This document shows positions 24,209-62,101 of a stretch of 64,000 nt of DNA, piece after piece. The notes under the pieces were generated by a model that saw only the letters and a list, made by a program, of their open reading frames with translations, made no database searches and was not told the DNA's origin. Source of the stretch: Thioclava marina (GTDB lineage Bacteria > Pseudomonadota > Alphaproteobacteria > Rhodobacterales > Rhodobacteraceae); NCBI RefSeq assembly GCF_002020135.1, contig NZ_MPZS01000003.1:62001-126000 (forward strand), in the 5' to 3' direction. A program made the translations under genes and the position numbers. Numbering within the stretch: the stretch's first letter is position 1; each line of letters starts with the position of its first letter.

Positions 24209-24793
24209 ATGTCGAAGAAATTGTCCATCGTCGTCGTCGAAGCCGAGCCCGAGCGAGCCGCCCTGATCGAGGCGAGCCTGCGCGAGGCGGGCGATTTCGA
24301 GATTGCTGTGATTGCCGAGACGGCCGGGCTCGCCCGACGCATTTCCGAGCGCAACCCGGACGTCGTGCTGATCGACATGGCCAACCCCTCGCGCGATATG
24401 CTCGAAGAGATGGCGCTGGCCTCGGGGCCGCTTGAGCGGCCCGTGGCAATGTTCGTTGATCGAGAAGACGAGGGAATGACCAAGGCCGCGATCGACGCGG
24501 GCGTGTCGGCCTATGTCGTGGCCGGGCTGCGTGCGGACCGGATCAAGCCGATCCTGGACGCCGCGGTGGCGCGCTTTCACATGATCCACCGGATGCGGGC
24601 GGAACTCGCCGCGACCAAACGTGCGCTGGAAGAGCGCAAGGTGATCGACCGTGCCAAGGGTTTGTTGATGAAGGCGCGCGGGGTCGACGAGGATGCGGCC
24701 TATGCGCTGCTGCGCAAAACGGCGATGGATCAGGGAAAGCGTGTGGCCGAAGTGGCGCAGGCGCTGGTTACGGCGGCGGGGCTTCTGGCATGA
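24209..24793 (+). CDS. nasT: NasT, ANTAR-domain transcription antiterminator
   Basis: RNA-binding regulator of nitrate assimilation, 194 residues. The N-terminal ~125 residues are a receiver-like domain (IVVVEAEPERAALIEASLREAG with the acidic pocket, Asp56 in VVLIDM). The C-terminal ANTAR domain is ERKVIDRAKGLLMKARGVDEDAAYALLRKTAMDQGKRVAEVAQAL. In Azotobacter and Paracoccus, NasT disrupts leader terminators when freed from NasS by nitrate or nitrite. The start at 24209 begins the receiver fold; a frame from 24107 would run through non-conserved residues and abuts the preceding terminator. It overlaps nasS by 4 bases. Confidence 0.94.
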   Translation: MSKKLSIVVVEAEPERAALIEASLREAGDFEIAVIAETAGLARRISERNPDVVLIDMANPSRDMLEEMALASGPLERPVAMFVDREDEGMTKAAIDAGVSAYVVAGLRADRIKPILDAAVARFHMIHRMRAELAATKRALEERKVIDRAKGLLMKARGVDEDAAYALLRKTAMDQGKRVAEVAQALVTAAGLLA

Positions 24794-25965
24794 GTGGCGC
24801 GCCGATCTCTGTCGGGTTCATCCCGCTCGTTGATGCCGCACCGCTGATCATCGCGCGCGAAATCGGGTTTGCCGAGGAAGAGGGGCTCGACCTCAAACTT
24901 GCGCCCGCGCCGAGCTGGTCGACCCTGCGCGACCGCCTCGCAATGGGGCAGATCGAAGCGGCGCATATGCTCTTCCCGATGCCGGTCGCGGCGGCGCTGG
25001 GGCTCGGGGGCTTTGGCACCAGGATCGACATTCTTCTGGTTCTCTCGCTCAATGGAAATTCCATTGGCGTATCGCGCGCCCTTGCCGAGAAAATTCGCGC
25101 CAACGGGTACGAGTTCGATTTTACCTGCGCCAAACGGGCGGGGGAGGCGCTGATCGCAGCGCTTGACGGGCCGCTGCGCATCGGCGTGCCGTTCCCGTTC
25201 TCGATGCATGCAGAGATGCTCTATCACTGGCTTGGCGCGCTGGGGCTGAAAGCGCCGCAGGATCTCGATGTGCGCACCGTGCCGCCACCGCTGATGGCCG
25301 AGGCTTTGGCCGCAGGCGAGATCGACGCCTTCTGCGTGGGTGCCCCCTGGGGCTCGATCGCAGTCGAAACCGGGGTTGGCGAGCTGCTTCTGCCCGGAAC
25401 CGCGATCCGGGCCAACGCGCCCGAGAAGGTTTTGGCCGTGCGTCACGACTGGGCCGAGGCGGAACCGGGTCTCACACGGCGCCTGATGCGTGCCACCTGG
25501 CTTGCGGGGCGCTGGCTTGCACGGCCCGAGAATCGCGGCACTGCAGCTGAAATCCTTGCGCTGCACGAATATCTCGACCTGCCCGCCGAACTGATCGAGC
25601 GGTCTCTGACGGGGGAGCTGATAATCTCGCAGCGCGGCGAGCTGCGTCGCGTCAGCGGCTATCTGGAGTTCTTCGAGGGGGCTGCGGCCTATCCCTGGGC
25701 GTCGCAGGCGGCGCTGGTCGCGTCGCGTCTCGCCGCTCGGATGGGGCTTGGTCGGGAAGAAGCGATGGCGGCCGCGCGTGCGATCTGCCGGACCGATCTC
25801 TACCGCCGCAACCTTGCGGATCTGGGAGCCGAAATGCCCGGCGCGCGCGAGAAGATCGAAGGCGCAATGACCGAGCCGACCGCAGTCGCCACGCAATCCG
25901 GCAAGCTGATTCTGTCACCGGATGCGTTTTTCGACGGCTGGATTTTTGATCCCTCAAATCCCTGA
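24790..25965 (+). CDS. nasS: NasS, cytoplasmic nitrate/nitrite sensor
   Basis: 391-residue NrtA/CmpA-family binding protein without a signal peptide, which marks it as the cytoplasmic sensor rather than the transporter component. ISVGFIPLVDAAPLIIAREIGFAEEEGLDL, WSTLRDRLAMGQIEAAHML, RIGVPFPFSMHAEMLYHWL and VPPPLMAEALAAGEIDAFCVGAPWGSIAVE follow the ligand-binding path of NrtA. NasS holds NasT inactive until nitrate or nitrite binds. The ATGA overlap with nasT implies balanced synthesis of the pair. Confidence 0.94.
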   Translation: MSGAPISVGFIPLVDAAPLIIAREIGFAEEEGLDLKLAPAPSWSTLRDRLAMGQIEAAHMLFPMPVAAALGLGGFGTRIDILLVLSLNGNSIGVSRALAEKIRANGYEFDFTCAKRAGEALIAALDGPLRIGVPFPFSMHAEMLYHWLGALGLKAPQDLDVRTVPPPLMAEALAAGEIDAFCVGAPWGSIAVETGVGELLLPGTAIRANAPEKVLAVRHDWAEAEPGLTRRLMRATWLAGRWLARPENRGTAAEILALHEYLDLPAELIERSLTGELIISQRGELRRVSGYLEFFEGAAAYPWASQAALVASRLAARMGLGREEAMAAARAICRTDLYRRNLADLGAEMPGAREKIEGAMTEPTAVATQSGKLILSPDAFFDGWIFDPSNP

Positions 25966-25992
25966 CGGTGAAAATTTGGGCAAATAAAACGG

Positions 25993-26020
25993 CCCGCGAA
26001 AAATTCGGCCCTTTTGCGGG
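25993..26020 (+). terminator. Hairpin after nasS
   Basis: CCCGC plus AAAA (25993-25997, 25999-26002) pair with TTTT plus GCGGG (26012-26020), with one bulged G and a 9-base loop. It lies 28 bases after the nasS stop. There is no trailing T-run on the plus strand, so it may end or stabilise the nasTS message but is not a strong terminator. Confidence 0.45.
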
Positions 26021-26040
26021 TGCAGAAATTTCCAAGGCCG

Positions 26041-26069
26041 TTGACGCCGCAGCTGCACAATGGGATTCC
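26041..26069 (+). promoter_or_regulatory. Weak candidate promoter for the nrt-nas operon
   Basis: TTGACG at 26041-26046 is spaced 17 bases from GATTCC at 26064-26069. The -35 is good and the -10 is poor, which would fit activator dependence. Transcription would start close to the ANTAR-type hairpin that begins at 26077. Confidence 0.3.
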
Positions 26070-26076
26070 TGTCTTA

Positions 26077-26096
26077 TCGAGGCAAGGTCGTCTCGA
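26077..26096 (+). promoter_or_regulatory. ANTAR-type hexaloop hairpin in the nrtA leader (candidate NasT target)
   Basis: TCGAGGC (26077-26083) pairs with GTCTCGA (26090-26096), seven pairs including one G-T, around the six-base loop AAGGTC. ANTAR targets are described as paired hairpins with hexanucleotide loops that keep A at position 1 and G at position 4; this loop has both. A second 7-bp stem with a six-base loop (CGGGCA, G at position 4 but not A at 1) spans 26126-26145. An alternative 7-bp stem at 26111-26130, with loop GCTGCA, excludes it. Confidence 0.65.
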
Positions 26097-26186
26097 CGAA
26101 GACATTCATAGCCGCGCGCTGCAGCGTGGCTTCGGGCAAAGCCGCTCGATCTTAGCGCAGACTTCCACTCCTCCTCCCTGGAAGCG

Positions 26187-26208
26187 CGCCTGGATCGGGC
26201 GGTTTTTT
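26187..26208 (+). terminator. Leader terminator (attenuator) upstream of nrtA
   Basis: CGCCT (26187-26191) pairs with GGGCG (26197-26201), five pairs with one T-G, loop GGATC, followed by G and six Ts at 26203-26208. It ends 40 bases before the nrtA start and about 110 bases after the candidate NasT hairpin. An upstream stem, CTTCCA (26162-26167) with TGGAAG (26179-26184), abuts its 5' arm. The arrangement fits transcription attenuation relieved by NasT. Confidence 0.7.
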
Positions 26209-26248
26209 CATTTTCGACGCAAAAATGACGACACAGGGACAGTGAACA

Positions 26249-27610
26249 ATGAAAAAGCTTCTGGCAGCTATCGCTACCACGACGATCTTGAGCGCTCCGG
26301 CCTTCGCAGAGATGCTCGATGTCGAGAAGGACGAGCTGAAATTCGGCTTCATCAAGCTTACCGACATGGCGCCGCTCGCAGTGGCCTATGAGAAGGGCTA
26401 TTTCGAGGATGAGGGCCTTTTCGTCACGCTCGAGCCGCAGGCGAACTGGAAGGTTCTGCTGGATCGCGTGATCGACGGCGAACTTGACGGGGCACATATG
26501 CTGGCCGGTCAGCCGCTGGCCGCGACCATCGGCTTCGGCACCAAGGCCCATGTCATCACGCCCTTCTCGATGGATCTCAACGGCAACGGCATCACCGTGT
26601 CGAACGAGGTCTGGGAAGAAATGAAGAAGAACATCCCCGTCGACGCCGAAGGCAAGCCGGTCCACCCGATCTCGGCCTCGGCGCTCAAGCCGGTTGTCGA
26701 AAGCTACCGCGCCGCCGGCAAGCCCTTCAACATGGGCATGGTCTTCCCGGTTTCGACCCACAATTACGAGTTGCGCTACTGGCTGGCGGCCGGTGGCCTG
26801 GAGCCGGGCTACTACTCGCCCGATGACGTGTCGGGTCAGATCGGCGCCGACGTGCTGCTCTCGGTGACCCCGCCGCCGCAGATGCCCGCGACCCTCGAGG
26901 CCGGCACGATCTACGGCTATTGCGTGGGCGAGCCGTGGAACCAGCAGGCCGTCTTCAAGGGGATCGGCGTTCCGGTCATCACCGATTACGAGATCTGGAA
27001 GAACAATCCCGAGAAAGTCTTCGGCATCACCGCCGAATTCGCCGAGGAAAATCCGAACACGACCCTCGCCATCACCAAGGCGCTGATCCGCGCCGCGATG
27101 TGGCTCGATGAGAACGACAACGCCAACCGCCCCGAGGCGGTCGAGATCCTCGCCAAGTCGGAATATGTCGGCGCGGATGCGGAAGTCATCGCGAACTCGA
27201 TGACCGGCACCTTCGAATACGAGAAGGGCGACAAGCGCGACGTTCCCGATTTCAACGTCTTCTTCCGCTACTACGCGACCTATCCCTACTACTCGGACGC
27301 GGTGTGGTATCTCACCCAGATGCGCCGCTGGGGCCAGATCTCCGACAGCCAGCCCGACAGCTGGTATGACGAGGTCGCCAAGTCCGTCTACAAGCCCGAG
27401 ATCTACCTGAAGGCTGCGCAGATGCTGGTCGAGGAAGGCATCGCGGACAAGGCGGATTTCCCTTGGGATACCGATGGTTACCGGGATCCGACGTCCGATA
27501 TCATCGACGGCGTCGAGTATAACGGCCGCACTCCCAACGCTTATATCGACAGCCTGCCGATCGGCCTGAAATCCGGCCAGAAAGTCGTCGGAAACAAGGT
27601 CGAGGGCTAA
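26249..27610 (+). CDS. nrtA: NrtA, nitrate ABC transporter substrate-binding protein
   Basis: Periplasmic binding protein of 453 residues with a signal peptide ([20 protein letters not shown], cleavage after AFA). [78 protein letters not shown] and [27 protein letters not shown] match the NrtA/CmpA ligand path. Nitrate is preferred over bicarbonate because of the nas genes that follow. It shares this fold with NasS upstream, so the locus has one exported and one cytoplasmic copy. Confidence 0.95.
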
Positions 27611-35384: not shown

Positions 35385-35617
35385 GCAGGTGCAGCATTGA
35401 GGGCAGTAATGATGAATCATCAAGTCCTCGGGCATGGCGCCCGGGCTTTCCACCGCAACGGCGCGGTATTTCTCGTCAAGCGCCCCATGAGGGGCACAGC
35501 GGCAACGGGGCTGCACCTTCGGATCGCTCGCGATCCGCGGAGATGCTCCCGTTTCTTCCCGCGCATTCTCCGGACGATTTCGGCCTCGGCCGCCCCAGTC
35601 ACTCACGGAGACCGCGC

Positions 35618-41647: not shown

Positions 41648-41989
41648 TCAGATCCCCTTGGCCAGGCTCTGCGCGATGAGCGCCGCGCGTGTCTTTTCCA
41701 GCGAGGGATGGATCAGTGCGTTCTCGATCGCGGCGACCTGCTCGTAATCGAGCGCGTCCAGCGGCTTGCCGCCTGCAAAGGGCGTGGCGCGGGAGATGTC
41801 GAAAGCGCTCAGATGCGGGTCCGAGGGCATGTAATACGCCGGATCAGGCCCCGATTTGGCAGCGCTCGACGCGCCATTGGGCATCATGTCTTGCGGTGAC
41901 GGGCCACTCGCGGCCGATGCGGCCAAAGCGCCGAAAGCGCTCATCGCCATCGCGAGGCCGAGCCGGGTCAGAGTGCGGCTGAAAAACAT
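41648..41989 (-). CDS. Small secreted protein of unknown function (113 aa)
   Basis: Starts with a basic stretch and a hydrophobic segment (FFSRTLTRLGLAMAMSAFGALAASA), a typical Sec signal cut after ASA. The mature part has a Pro/Ser/Tyr-rich middle and a C-terminal helix, LDALDYEQVAAIENALIHPSLEKTRAALIAQSLAKGI. It starts 3 bases after the stop of a second small secreted gene. The C-terminal pattern L-x2-L-x3-Q-x-A-x-I resembles that neighbour's. I recognise no family. Confidence 0.7.
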   Translation of the reverse strand: MFFSRTLTRLGLAMAMSAFGALAASAASGPSPQDMMPNGASSAAKSGPDPAYYMPSDPHLSAFDISRATPFAGGKPLDALDYEQVAAIENALIHPSLEKTRAALIAQSLAKGI

Positions 41990-60195: not shown

Positions 60196-60852
60196 CTAGT
60201 GCGCCTGACACCTCTTCTTCGTTTCACCGCGATCGAGATCGCTGTCCGGGTTTGCCAGCATCAGGGACTCGCAATGGTCCTCGACGCTGACGCGCGCGCG
60301 CATGCTGTCCTTTCGCAGAAGGTCGTATGCGGCATCTTCGTTAAGTCCGCGCTGGCGCATCAGCGCTGCGACGGCCTTGATCACGTAAATCCTCTTGCGG
60401 CGGCGTTCGCCCATATCGTCGAGGCTCACTCTCAGCCCGTCGACATGCTCGAACGCATTCACGCCCAGATAAAGGGCGGAGTAGACGGCCCCGCTATGGA
60501 TCGGTTTTTGCAGGAAGGACGCGGCCCCGAGTTGGAGCATCGCCTTGAGCCGGCTCGGCGCTTCCGTGCCGACCAGTCCGACCGTCGGGCAGGGCGCGTG
60601 CAGGCTCGACACGTTGTAGCTGCCGGGCCATGCGAGCGGCAAATTCAGATCGCCGTCGATGATCACCAAGTCGGTGTCCGGTGCCAGATTGTCCGGCAAT
60701 TCGAAGTCCTGACGCAGTGGGACGGGCCGGGCGTCCGGCTCCAGTCCAAGCCGGCGCAGCGTCGCCTCTAGAATGCCCAGTGACTGGCCTTCCGTCGTGA
60801 AGATCACCGCCCTGCGACCTCTGAAGTTTTGCGCGATACGGGGTGCCTTCAT
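60196..60852 (-). CDS. amiR: AmiR-like ANTAR-domain antitermination regulator
   Basis: 218-residue regulator. Residues ~10-130 form a pseudo-receiver (AVIFTTEGQSLGILEATLRRLGLEP, DLVIIDGDLNLP, TVGLVGTEAPSRLKAMLQLGAASFLQKP). The C-terminal ANTAR domain is RKRIYVIKAVAALMRQRGLNEDAAYDLLRKDSMRARVSVEDHCESLM. In Pseudomonas, AmiR binds leader RNA of the amidase operon and is held by AmiC. The ATG at 60852 overlaps the amiC stop region by 4 bases; a frame from further upstream runs inside amiC. It lies 40 bases before the transporter genes. Confidence 0.9.
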   Translation of the reverse strand: MKAPRIAQNFRGRRAVIFTTEGQSLGILEATLRRLGLEPDARPVPLRQDFELPDNLAPDTDLVIIDGDLNLPLAWPGSYNVSSLHAPCPTVGLVGTEAPSRLKAMLQLGAASFLQKPIHSGAVYSALYLGVNAFEHVDGLRVSLDDMGERRRKRIYVIKAVAALMRQRGLNEDAAYDLLRKDSMRARVSVEDHCESLMLANPDSDLDRGETKKRCQAH

Positions 60853-62009
60853 GAAACCACCCTCACATACTTGCGTCGCTGTGCGGGCTCGAAGGCCGTC
60901 GTGGATGTCACGAGGTAAGGATCCGCCGCGATCGGCTCGGGGGCCTCGATCAGGATGTCGAACTCGAAATCGTTGCGCGACAACCCGATGCGAGGGGTGA
61001 GCGAGGCGTGATAAGTGTCGGGGTCGATCGTGACCCGTCCCTGCGGCGCATCGAAAACCTGTCCCGCAGCCGCCTTGAGAACCGGCCCCACCTCCGCCGT
61101 GCCAGCATCCGAGACGGATTTGGCAAGCATATGAATGGCGATGTAGGCGGCCTCCGCTTCGGCCGAGGCGACAGGCCCCTCGGGGAAGGCCTTGCCATAG
61201 GCCTCGACGAAGCGCTTGTTGCGCTCGCCTGCGAGGGACGAGAAATAGACGCTGGAGCTTATCTGCCCGTCGGACCCGACGGGGCCGATCGCGCGGAGTT
61301 CGGGCTCCGACAGGTTGCAGCTCGCGATCGGGAAGCGTGTGGTCTGCTTGATCCCGCGCGCTTCGCAGGTCTCCCGGAAGGCCCGGAAGAACGCGTAGGA
61401 AGACTCGCCAATCAGCGCGTTGAACACGAAGTCGGGCTCGGTCTCGAGGATTTCCTCGATGATGGCGCCCATTTCGGTCTCGCCAACGGGCAGGTAACGC
61501 TCGGCCAGCACTTCGCCGCGACGCCTTTGCAGCTCCTCGCGCATCACCCGGTTGCTTTCCCAGCCCCAGATGTAATTCGAGCCGATGCAATAGGCGCGGC
61601 GGCCGAAACGGGCGCACAGAAAGTCGATCAAAGGCGACATGTGATGGTTCGGTGCCGCGCCGGTATAGATGACGTTGGTTGAGCTCTCGAAACCTTCGTA
61701 ATGCGTCGGATACCACAGGAGCGCGTCATGCTTCTCGAAGAGCGGGATCACGTCCTTGCGGCTCGACGAGGTGTAGCATCCGCAGACATGGCGAATGCCC
61801 TGATCGAACATGCTCTGAACGGCGGGTGCGTATTTGTGCAGCTCGCTCGCGGGGTCGATGTGGACGGGGCGGAAGGTGACCGCAGCCGTCGGGTCCGCGT
61901 TGATCTCGTCACAGGCAAGCTGCGCACCGTTGAGCTGCGTATGCGCCACCCGGCCATAAGAACCGGTGGTCGAGAAAAGCAGGCCGATCGGTAGTTCGAT
62001 ACGTGTCAT
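60849..62009 (-). CDS. amiC: AmiC-like cytoplasmic amide sensor
   Basis: 386-residue periplasmic-binding-fold protein without a signal peptide: MTRIELPIGLLFSTTGSYGRVAHTQLNGAQLACDEIN. HVCGCYTSSSRKDVIPLFEKHDALLWYPTHYEGFESSTNVIYTGAAPNHH and AYCIGSNYIWGWESNRVMREELQRRRGEVLAERYLPVGETEMG are typical of AmiC, the amide-responsive inhibitor of AmiR. The ATG at 62009 opens the fold; a frame from 62090 would add residues read through the leader hairpin. First gene of the amide operon. It pairs with the ANTAR protein as NasS does with NasT. Confidence 0.9.
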   Translation of the reverse strand: MTRIELPIGLLFSTTGSYGRVAHTQLNGAQLACDEINADPTAAVTFRPVHIDPASELHKYAPAVQSMFDQGIRHVCGCYTSSSRKDVIPLFEKHDALLWYPTHYEGFESSTNVIYTGAAPNHHMSPLIDFLCARFGRRAYCIGSNYIWGWESNRVMREELQRRRGEVLAERYLPVGETEMGAIIEEILETEPDFVFNALIGESSYAFFRAFRETCEARGIKQTTRFPIASCNLSEPELRAIGPVGSDGQISSSVYFSSLAGERNKRFVEAYGKAFPEGPVASAEAEAAYIAIHMLAKSVSDAGTAEVGPVLKAAAGQVFDAPQGRVTIDPDTYHASLTPRIGLSRNDFEFDILIEAPEPIAADPYLVTSTTAFEPAQRRKYVRVVS

Positions 62010-62033
62010 CTGGCTTCTTCCAACGGCAAGAAA

Positions 62034-62060
62034 CCCCAGAAGCAGAATCTGCTTTTGGGG
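62034..62060 (-). terminator. Terminator-like hairpin in the amiC leader
   Basis: On the minus strand CCCCA-x-AAGCAG pairs with CTGCTT-x-TGGGG (eleven pairs, one A-C mismatch, 3-base loop) and is followed by TTTCTT (62033-62028). It ends about 20 bases before the amiC start. The T-run is short, but the position is right for an attenuator opened by the ANTAR protein. Confidence 0.6.
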
Positions 62061-62101
62061 CGGTAATGCCGACATATCTTGAGATTTCAACGCGCCGTAG
62101 C

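Follow-up and report, generated by a model that had tools for sequence, protein, structure and literature searches.

A probable NasT-operated attenuator ahead of nrtA in Thioclava marina, with an anti-Shine-Dalgarno hairpin at the tip of its terminator

The 64,000-nucleotide stretch of Thioclava marina DNA analysed here (the window) carries a set of nitrate genes in which 283 bases separate nasS from nrtA, and the question that this gap raises is how the leader it contains might control the genes that follow. On the forward strand the gene order is M29 aminopeptidase, nasT, nasS, leader and nrtA, then a nitrate-permease-like protein (157 bits, below the Pfam cut-off of 209) and a nitrate ATP-binding protein (599 bits, above its cut-off), and beyond these a pyridine-nucleotide oxidoreductase, a molybdopterin reductase (which best fits the formate dehydrogenase and assimilatory nitrate reductase models, below their cut-offs), a uroporphyrinogen methyltransferase, nirB and more genes up to a cyanase. 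Gene order and Pfam agree with an earlier reading of this DNA from its letters (the sequence-only reading), which had placed nasT and nasS directly upstream of the leader. The ANTAR domain of NasT scored 76.6 bits (cut-off 27.3), and 78.8 bits in an ANTAR search of the whole T. marina genome; its receiver domain, at 28.4 bits, fell slightly below the Pfam cut-off of 30.2. The window NrtA shares 98% identity with its counterpart in T. pacifica DSM 10166, whose leader (L004) is nearly the same. Rfam gave no matches at gathering thresholds across the whole window and three weak matches only (E 1.1 to 5) below threshold in 25800-26500, and a sigma-70 promoter scan upstream of the leader found none. 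The features discussed are collected in Table 1.

Table 1. Features of the nrtA leader and adjoining genes, in window coordinates.
Feature	Position	Strand	Basis
nasT: RNA-binding antiterminator with receiver-like and ANTAR domains	24209..24793	+	Pfam
nasS: NMT1-like, probable nitrate/nitrite sensor by gene order and homologues	24790..25965	+	Pfam NMT1_2, 218 bits
H1: hexaloop hairpin TCGAGGC-AAGGTC-GTCTCGA (A1, G4), probable NasT recruitment hairpin	26077..26096	+	letters, covariation, fold
H2: middle hairpin AGCCGCGC-GCTGCA-GCGTGGCT (G1, G4)	26110..26131	+	letters, fold, recurrence in relatives
H3: antiterminator hairpin TCGGGC-AAAGCC-GCTCGA (A1, G4)	26132..26149	+	letters, conservation, fold
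Attenuator terminator: stem 26138-26152/26192-26206, inner helix 26155-26158/26186-26189, T run 26203-26208	26138..26208	+	minimum-energy fold, arm covariation
Anti-Shine-Dalgarno (ar14/cuckoo-type) hairpin CTTCCA-CTCCTCCTCCC-TGGAAG at the terminator apex	26162..26184	+	fold, motif, BLAST
nrtA: substrate-binding protein of a nitrate ABC transporter; the controlled operon begins with this gene, named by neighbours and homologues	26249..27610	+	Pfam NMT1_2, 327 bits

The region 26060-26250 folds better than 200 of 200 shuffles (z -4.7), and the predicted fold depends on how much of the leader has been made. In the nascent leader (to 26165) the predicted pairing probabilities were 1.00 for H1, 0.98 for H2 and 0.93 for H3, whereas in the full leader the terminator forms and that of H3 falls to 0.00, because the terminator takes the H3 loop and 3' arm, which double as its own 5' arm. 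The 7-bp stem with the loop AAGGTC noted earlier at 26077-26096 is present, covaries in relatives and pairs with a probability of 1.00; this H1 is one of two hexaloop hairpins of at least 7 bp with A1 and G4 in the loop, among 88 hexaloop stems of such length on the forward strand of the 64-kb window. The intrinsic terminator that had been placed at 26187-26208 does lie there with its T run, but it is not merely the 15-base stem-loop 26187-26201, since the predicted stem is 26138-26206; a T6 run ends it 40 bases before nrtA. As in dual-hexaloop ANTAR leaders, there are two hexaloops with A1 and G4 (AAGGTC in H1 and AAAGCC in H3), a gene for a cognate ANTAR protein (nasT, upstream), and a second hexaloop that, by predicted folding, is excluded by an intrinsic terminator (26132-26149 against 26138-26206).

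It is in its second hairpin that the sequence-only reading went astray. It had H1 followed by two mutually exclusive hairpins off the consensus, at 26111-26130 or 26126-26145, with C or G at loop position 1, and took these as a possible sign of how the NasT of this lineage recognises RNA. Both stems exist as letters, but the one at 26126-26145 has a pairing probability of 0.00 whether the leader is nascent (to 26165) or full, and reaches at least 5 bp in that register in 5/80 leaders (7 bp in the window and T. pacifica, 5 bp in three others). Its bases are used by the conserved antiterminator H3, which had been overlooked and which keeps A1 and G4, and the hairpin at 26110-26131 is compatible with H3 rather than exclusive of it. 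With the wrong bases paired, that version of the switch is very improbable: the critical hairpin does not depart from the ANTAR consensus, and among the leader hairpins of the window only the non-overlapping H2 (loop GCTGCA) is without A1.

Conservation was followed in 80 named loci with close NrtA relatives, plus the window. An H3-type hairpin overlapping the 5' arm of the terminator was present in 80/81, and L083, in which no leader was found, was removed before all counts. The search for H3 itself demanded G4, a closing C-G pair and complementarity to the terminator, which are hence not evidence, but it did not require A1, and A1 is found in the H3 loop of 76/80 leaders. When H1 was anchored by column in an alignment of the 80 leaders, 78 could be counted and two were gapped; A1 was present in 72/78 and G4 in 73/78, 77.1% of stem cells were paired against 54.2±1.4% after shuffling, and the compensatory changes to be expected of a true stem at 26077-26096 were seen in 138 double-changed cells against 50.4±6.0 (n = 78). 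The terminator arms behaved likewise, with 58 cells changed on both sides against 20.0±3.8 in shuffles (alignment of 80 leaders). The H3 stem alone was weak in the pairing test (69.6% against 66.9±0.9%, with 3/500 shuffles as high) because it hardly varies.

A second alignment held 58 leaders selected for a complete H1 (65 with AA and G4, 61 of these with H1 and H3 at 44-54 nt, 59 after removal of identical rows, and L045 left out by hand). Here 82.0% of the H1, H2 and H3 cells were paired against 71.0±0.8% in shuffles and at most 42.6% in slid controls, of which the slid control matters more, as related sequences can beat shuffles without any structure; selection for hexaloops and terminator complementarity, and in this alignment also for AA and G4 in H1, inflates such pairing percentages, which the two kinds of control correct in part. 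The covariation score was 0.329 against 0.150±0.010 (0/500 shuffles as high), and the count of further pair types was not above shuffles (33 against 30.6, 87/500). The distance from loop to loop between H1 and H3, 54 nt in the window, lies at 44-54 nt in 61/65 leaders with AA and G4 in H1.

A covariance model of H1 and H3 (R1) was then set against whole genomes. In T. marina, where 150 of 1693 first-look candidates were scored, the best match was the window leader (43 bits, E 9.5e-9), followed at 19 bits by a site inside a reading frame of L115. The six matches after the best (E 0.04 to 0.9), considered as further NasT targets, were taken as chance; these sites (L115-L120) resemble coding sequence by eye, with frames listed for L115 only. 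Among 295 genomes of the family, searched with stricter filters and 17 candidates scored per genome, R1 matched at E≤0.001 in 101, and NasS homologues were present at E≤1e-60 in 115. The two occurred together in 98 of the 115 NasS genomes, leaving 17 without an R1 match, and R1 was found in 3/180 others (G057, G119, G183). Second R1 matches in relatives, at 19 loci in total, include nine that precede siroheme-synthesis genes of the cysG/cobA type (L151-L153, L155-L159, L161). Three of these nine genes were tested with Pfam, giving a tetrapyrrole methylase match in all and a CysG dimerisation domain in two, and the other siroheme loci were named by eye. Set aside from the count were L163, cysG-like by eye, and L154, L166, L167, L169 and L170, which by eye precede nrtA; L160, L162, L164 and L165 have no recognisable target gene. 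NasT-type leaders ahead of siroheme genes fit the siroheme need of nitrite reductase.

Switches of this kind are already known, and the working parts of the window leader make it a member of that kind. Passages of PMC5424462 describe hairpins in the nasS-nasA gap of P. denitrificans: mutation of hairpin I severely lowers expression on nitrate, its replacement in the chromosome prevents growth on nitrate, and mutation of hairpin II doubles the ammonium level. The NasS-NasT complex dissociates with nitrate, and NasT binds the leader (parts of PMC3795266). The window leader is like that of P. denitrificans nasA in having hairpins between nasS and the first nas gene, with NasTS upstream, and unlike it in that it would control nrtA rather than nasA. 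The A1/G4 rule and the exclusion mechanism are known from EutV, and the eutP, nasF and amiE dual-hexaloop antiterminators, as treated in sections of PMC3369931 and PMC8934654, share with the window leader A1/G4 hexaloops of which the last lies within the terminator; unlike them, the window leader has a third hairpin between the two consensus ones.

We therefore read the leader, with a probability of roughly 0.87, as a NasT-operated transcription attenuator of the nrtA operon that carries an anti-Shine-Dalgarno (anti-SD) hairpin at the tip of its terminator. The core of this, an ANTAR/NasT attenuator, had been proposed in the earlier reading and is well supported by the covarying hexaloops, the exclusion between H3 and terminator, the adjoining nasTS and the co-occurrence with NasS. 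What the DNA itself shows is the set of genes, the conserved hairpins with the exclusion predicted among them, and a tip that resembles the hairpins of small RNAs; nitrate sensing, NasT binding and antitermination at this locus would follow the pattern of the homologues. Without nitrate, NasS would hold NasT, and RNA polymerase would stop at the long hairpin 26138-26208. When set free by nitrate, NasT would bind the H1 hexaloop as it emerges from the polymerase and, we infer, could be handed on past H2 to stabilise H3 (26132-26149). Because H3 uses bases of the 5' arm of the terminator, the terminator could then not close, and nrtA would be transcribed.

The spacing of the hairpins bears on this hand-over. 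In eut leaders about 5-12 nt link the hexaloop hairpins, whereas in the window H1 and H3 are 35 nt apart, with 13 nt between H1 and H2 and 0 nt between H2 and H3, which abut. According to parts of the EutV papers, a linker of 14 nt instead of 5-12 sharply lowered induction in E. faecalis (PMC3369931), and 20 additional nt abolished antitermination (PMC8934654). By that analogy 35 nt exceeds the linkers that EutV tolerates, so that either the folding of H2 shortens the distance or H1 and H3 are not partners; since EutV antitermination fails with 20 nt more, H2 would probably have to be folded for H3 to come close to the NasT that H1 recruits. Judged in the same way, the long linker lowers the fit to eut leaders but not to the wider family of ANTAR leaders with a variable linker that Ramesh et al. 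define in a section of PMC3369931. For Thioclava and its relatives the known switch can now be located to the base, and it has three hairpins rather than two; the extra step that this introduces offers a way to test the EutV 'hand-over' model.

A hairpin recurs at the H2 position in relatives, with a degenerate loop in most. By a search for the best hairpin it is an A1/G4 hexaloop in 17/80 leaders only, and many Rhodobacterales leaders have there a CCC/GGG-type hairpin with a loop of 5-7 nt. One clade, with 12 NrtA rows from Hyphomicrobiales and a Sneathiella, includes 11 leaders that carry a sigma-54-like -24/-12 element; in 9/11 of these the middle hairpin is a full A1/G4 hexaloop (for example GCGCCC-AAGGAC-GGGCGC in L064), ending 1-8 nt before H3 in all 11. 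The middle hairpin may thus be the classical first hexaloop, with H1 an upstream addition, or H2 may have decayed after H1 arose. The sigma-54-like element (TGGCAC..TGC) ends 59-66 nt before the H3 loop in L028, L045, L052, L063, L064, L065, L069, L072, L078, L080 and L082, and is found in 0 of the other 69/80 leaders. By eye, all three hairpins are A1/G4 hexaloops in L080 and L081, a triple rather than a dual motif; those of L081 are GAGCGCC-AACGAG-GGCGTTC, GCGATCC-ATTGAC-GGGTCGC and GTGGC-AAGGCC-GCCAC.

The new and surprising part of the leader is the anti-SD hairpin inside the attenuator terminator, which had gone unnoticed in the sequence-only reading. Its loop has CUCCUCCUCCC, the anti-SD motif of the ar14/'cuckoo' small RNAs. 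Six tested bases of the loop have a predicted unpaired probability of 1.00, and the apical hairpin is predicted to keep most of its pairs if H1, H2 and H3 are imposed on the fold. The literature searched, with subscription journals mostly outside its scope and articles covered in part, places no anti-SD hairpin in a nas or nrt leader; the section of PMC5424462 on the P. denitrificans nasA leader discusses two hairpins and mentions no anti-SD motif.

With the motif defined as CTCC[CT]CC or CCTCCC, a definition chosen after seeing the sequences and guided by the published motif, 33/80 nrtA leaders have it in the terminator apex; CTCCTCC is present in 26 and the full CCTCCTCCC in 16. Letter shuffles of the same apices average 3.8 and reach at most 12 (0.58 and 5 for the strict form). 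It occurs in 0/149 other terminator-like sites of the same loci, the raw count of 1/150 having been corrected since the matching site was a mis-assigned nrtA leader (L035); the terminator scan recovered 65 leader terminators, 29 of them with the motif. The stems that carry it vary and mostly stay paired, with a mean of 7.27 bp against 4.53±0.26 when 3' sides are swapped (33 leaders); two of these hairpins hardly pair at all, that of L047 with 1 bp and that of L065 with 3 bp, and a few of the leaders are almost identical to one another. In a second sample of leaders, which may overlap with the first in species, the motif was found in 8 of 43 resolved loci (50 given, 7 unresolved). Being absent from 47/80 leaders and from 35/43 in the second sample, the motif is not essential to the switch.

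How the motif came to be distributed in this way can be explained without giving it a task. The CUCCUCC tip may be neutral or merely structural, having spread through descent or through recombination with hairpins of small RNAs, and we hold this to be quite possible, if a little short of an even chance. It would account for the patchy distribution, which takes 16 changes on a quickly built NrtA tree of 80 rows, 7 of them required by starred branches, although the motif is clustered there, shuffling giving a mean of 25.7 changes and 0/500 shuffles as low as 16; and it would sit well with the motif being in 0/9 siroheme-gene leaders. A tip of no consequence is harder to reconcile with a loop that is kept while its stems diverge, with its presence in both a Hyphomicrobiales-type clade and Rhodobacterales, and with its absence from the other terminator-like sites.

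A second explanation would have the loop act in cis, pairing in read-through mRNA with the nrtA ribosome-binding site and damping translation. The apical hairpin that persists beside H1-H3 would allow this, as would the position of the nrtA Shine-Dalgarno sequence, which is AGGGA-type (26235-26239) and lies about 57 nt 3' of the loop. In the 57/80 leaders with a usable start, 23 of them with the motif, loop and binding site are nevertheless not co-adapted: the mean duplex energy was -7.01 kcal/mol with a leader's own site, -6.71 with those of other anti-SD loci and -7.29 with those of loci lacking the motif, and the own site was better than the mean of the other anti-SD loci in 12/23. We regard a role in cis as improbable.

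There remains the likeness of the tip to a family of small RNAs. In parts of PMC10746234, ar14 RNAs are described as bearing an ultraconserved CCUCCUCCC loop on highly differing stems, and nitrogen stress induces one of them, NfeR1, which silences ntrB and two mRNAs for substrate-binding proteins of ABC transporters; AbcR1/2, with CUCCUCCC in a hairpin loop, silence transporter mRNAs (parts of PMC8844928). The window loop, CTCCTCCTCCC, contains CCUCCUCCC, and like ar14/NfeR1 and cuckoo/CcsR it sits on a freely varying stem (sections of PMC10746234 and PMC3927594). The leader differs from these in having a single hairpin inside an mRNA attenuator, where they are stand-alone or DUF1127-linked RNAs of several hairpins (three in ar14). 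By Rfam the leader itself is not a member of ar14 or CcsR1, the latter matching at 12.2 bits (cut-off 65.3, E 5).

The two nevertheless meet within the genus. CTCCTCCTCCCTNG occurs four times in the T. marina genome; three of the copies lie in a small-RNA array linked to DUF1127 and the fourth in the nrtA leader, and the backward-pattern control gave 0. The array, at C3:52411-52959 (-) and outside the window (L198-L205), has ten anti-SD motif copies after a DUF1127-like gene and scores 57.0 bits against Rfam ar14 (threshold 58.8). Its ten copies exceed the four CcsR RNAs that a part of PMC10253847 names for Rhodobacter sphaeroides. When the leader was compared by BLAST with 16 Thioclava genomes, the whole leader was found in four (T. 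marina itself, G302, G303, G307) and the anti-SD part only in three others. A locus so matched in another Thioclava (L195) has ten CTCCTCC motifs, in contexts that resemble hairpins, after a DUF1127 gene (41.8 bits with Pfam against a cut-off of 23.3), passes the ar14 cut-off (60.4 bits against 58.8) and reaches up to 51.9 bits for CcsR1, below threshold; L196 has two such motifs. At E≤10 ar14 also matches 9/14 control genomes, none over the cut-off, so that only strong hits (E 1.5e-9 to 4.3e-6) count.

These relations suggest that the terminated leader might also be released as an anti-SD small RNA in the style of NfeR1, AbcR or CcsR, silencing other transporter or nitrogen-control mRNAs when nitrate is missing. 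This would be compatible with the attenuator reading rather than exclusive of it. The shared letters in array and leader, the BLAST link to ar14/CcsR-type hairpins, the loop kept on changing stems, its open bases, its absence from the other terminator-like sites and the nitrogen response of NfeR1 all point this way. Against it stand the many leaders without the motif, the single hairpin where ar14 RNAs have three, the two hairpins that barely pair, and a P. denitrificans small-RNA paper with no nasA or nasT match. On balance we treat release as a small RNA as a tentative possibility, and a neutral or structural tip and a trans role of the terminated leader appear about as likely. The more specific proposal that termination without nitrate would free an RNA with both NasT hexaloops and an ar14-type anti-SD hairpin, which would silence other nitrogen-transport mRNAs or ntrBC, is rather unlikely, and any action of the loop is at this stage conjecture. 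There are precedents for a second life of such leaders: EutX/Rli55, a leader or ANTAR-binding RNA able to act as or yield a separate RNA, and RZ, derived from the SAM-II leader of S. meliloti metZ. EutX, unlike what is considered here, sequesters EutV, and the parts of PMC8934654 and PMC9373788 that treat EutX and RZ mention no anti-SD hairpin in either. If the terminated leader were active, each 'off' round would make a silencing RNA; the 'off' product of a protein-gated attenuator would be a regulator through which the choice of nitrate would be coupled to nitrogen metabolism at large, and there would be a direct link from nitrate sensing to those anti-SD small RNAs by which alphaproteobacteria control nitrogen and transporter mRNAs.

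The site 3' of the M29 aminopeptidase gene differs among the 16 Thioclava genomes: the nas cluster is there in 2, a stand-alone anti-SD hairpin in 6 and neither within about 1.5 kb in 8. The gene on the far side of the stand-alone hairpin matches window 41654-41890, just past the nas cluster, and G303 and G307 have a stand-alone hairpin at the aminopeptidase site together with a nas leader elsewhere. The recurrence of stand-alone hairpins at the same site in 6/16 genomes is a hint that hairpins of this kind pass from small-RNA genes to attenuators or back; the solo element of G254 could be what is left of a nas leader since lost, or could have been there before. The stand-alone element (L212-L217) is a long hairpin with a CCTCCTCC apex, about 270-320 nt past the aminopeptidase stop codon.

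Elsewhere in the window, 35452-35553, ahead of nirB (ATG 35618), contains two A1/G4 hexaloops, ACCGC-AACGGC-GCGGT and GCGGC-AACGGG-GCTGC, and is a possible second NasT leader. It scores 13.9 bits with R1 (E 0.017 for the window) and has a possible AACGGG/CCCGTT terminator; its hexaloops are kept in one close Thioclava (L226), its T run is not, and its fold is ordinary (z -1.1). Two further ANTAR proteins are encoded, one at window 60196-62090 (-) and one at L002 (T. marina C3:292695); both genes lie directly after a gene for a substrate-binding AmiC-like protein and beside ABC transporter genes, as named by eye.
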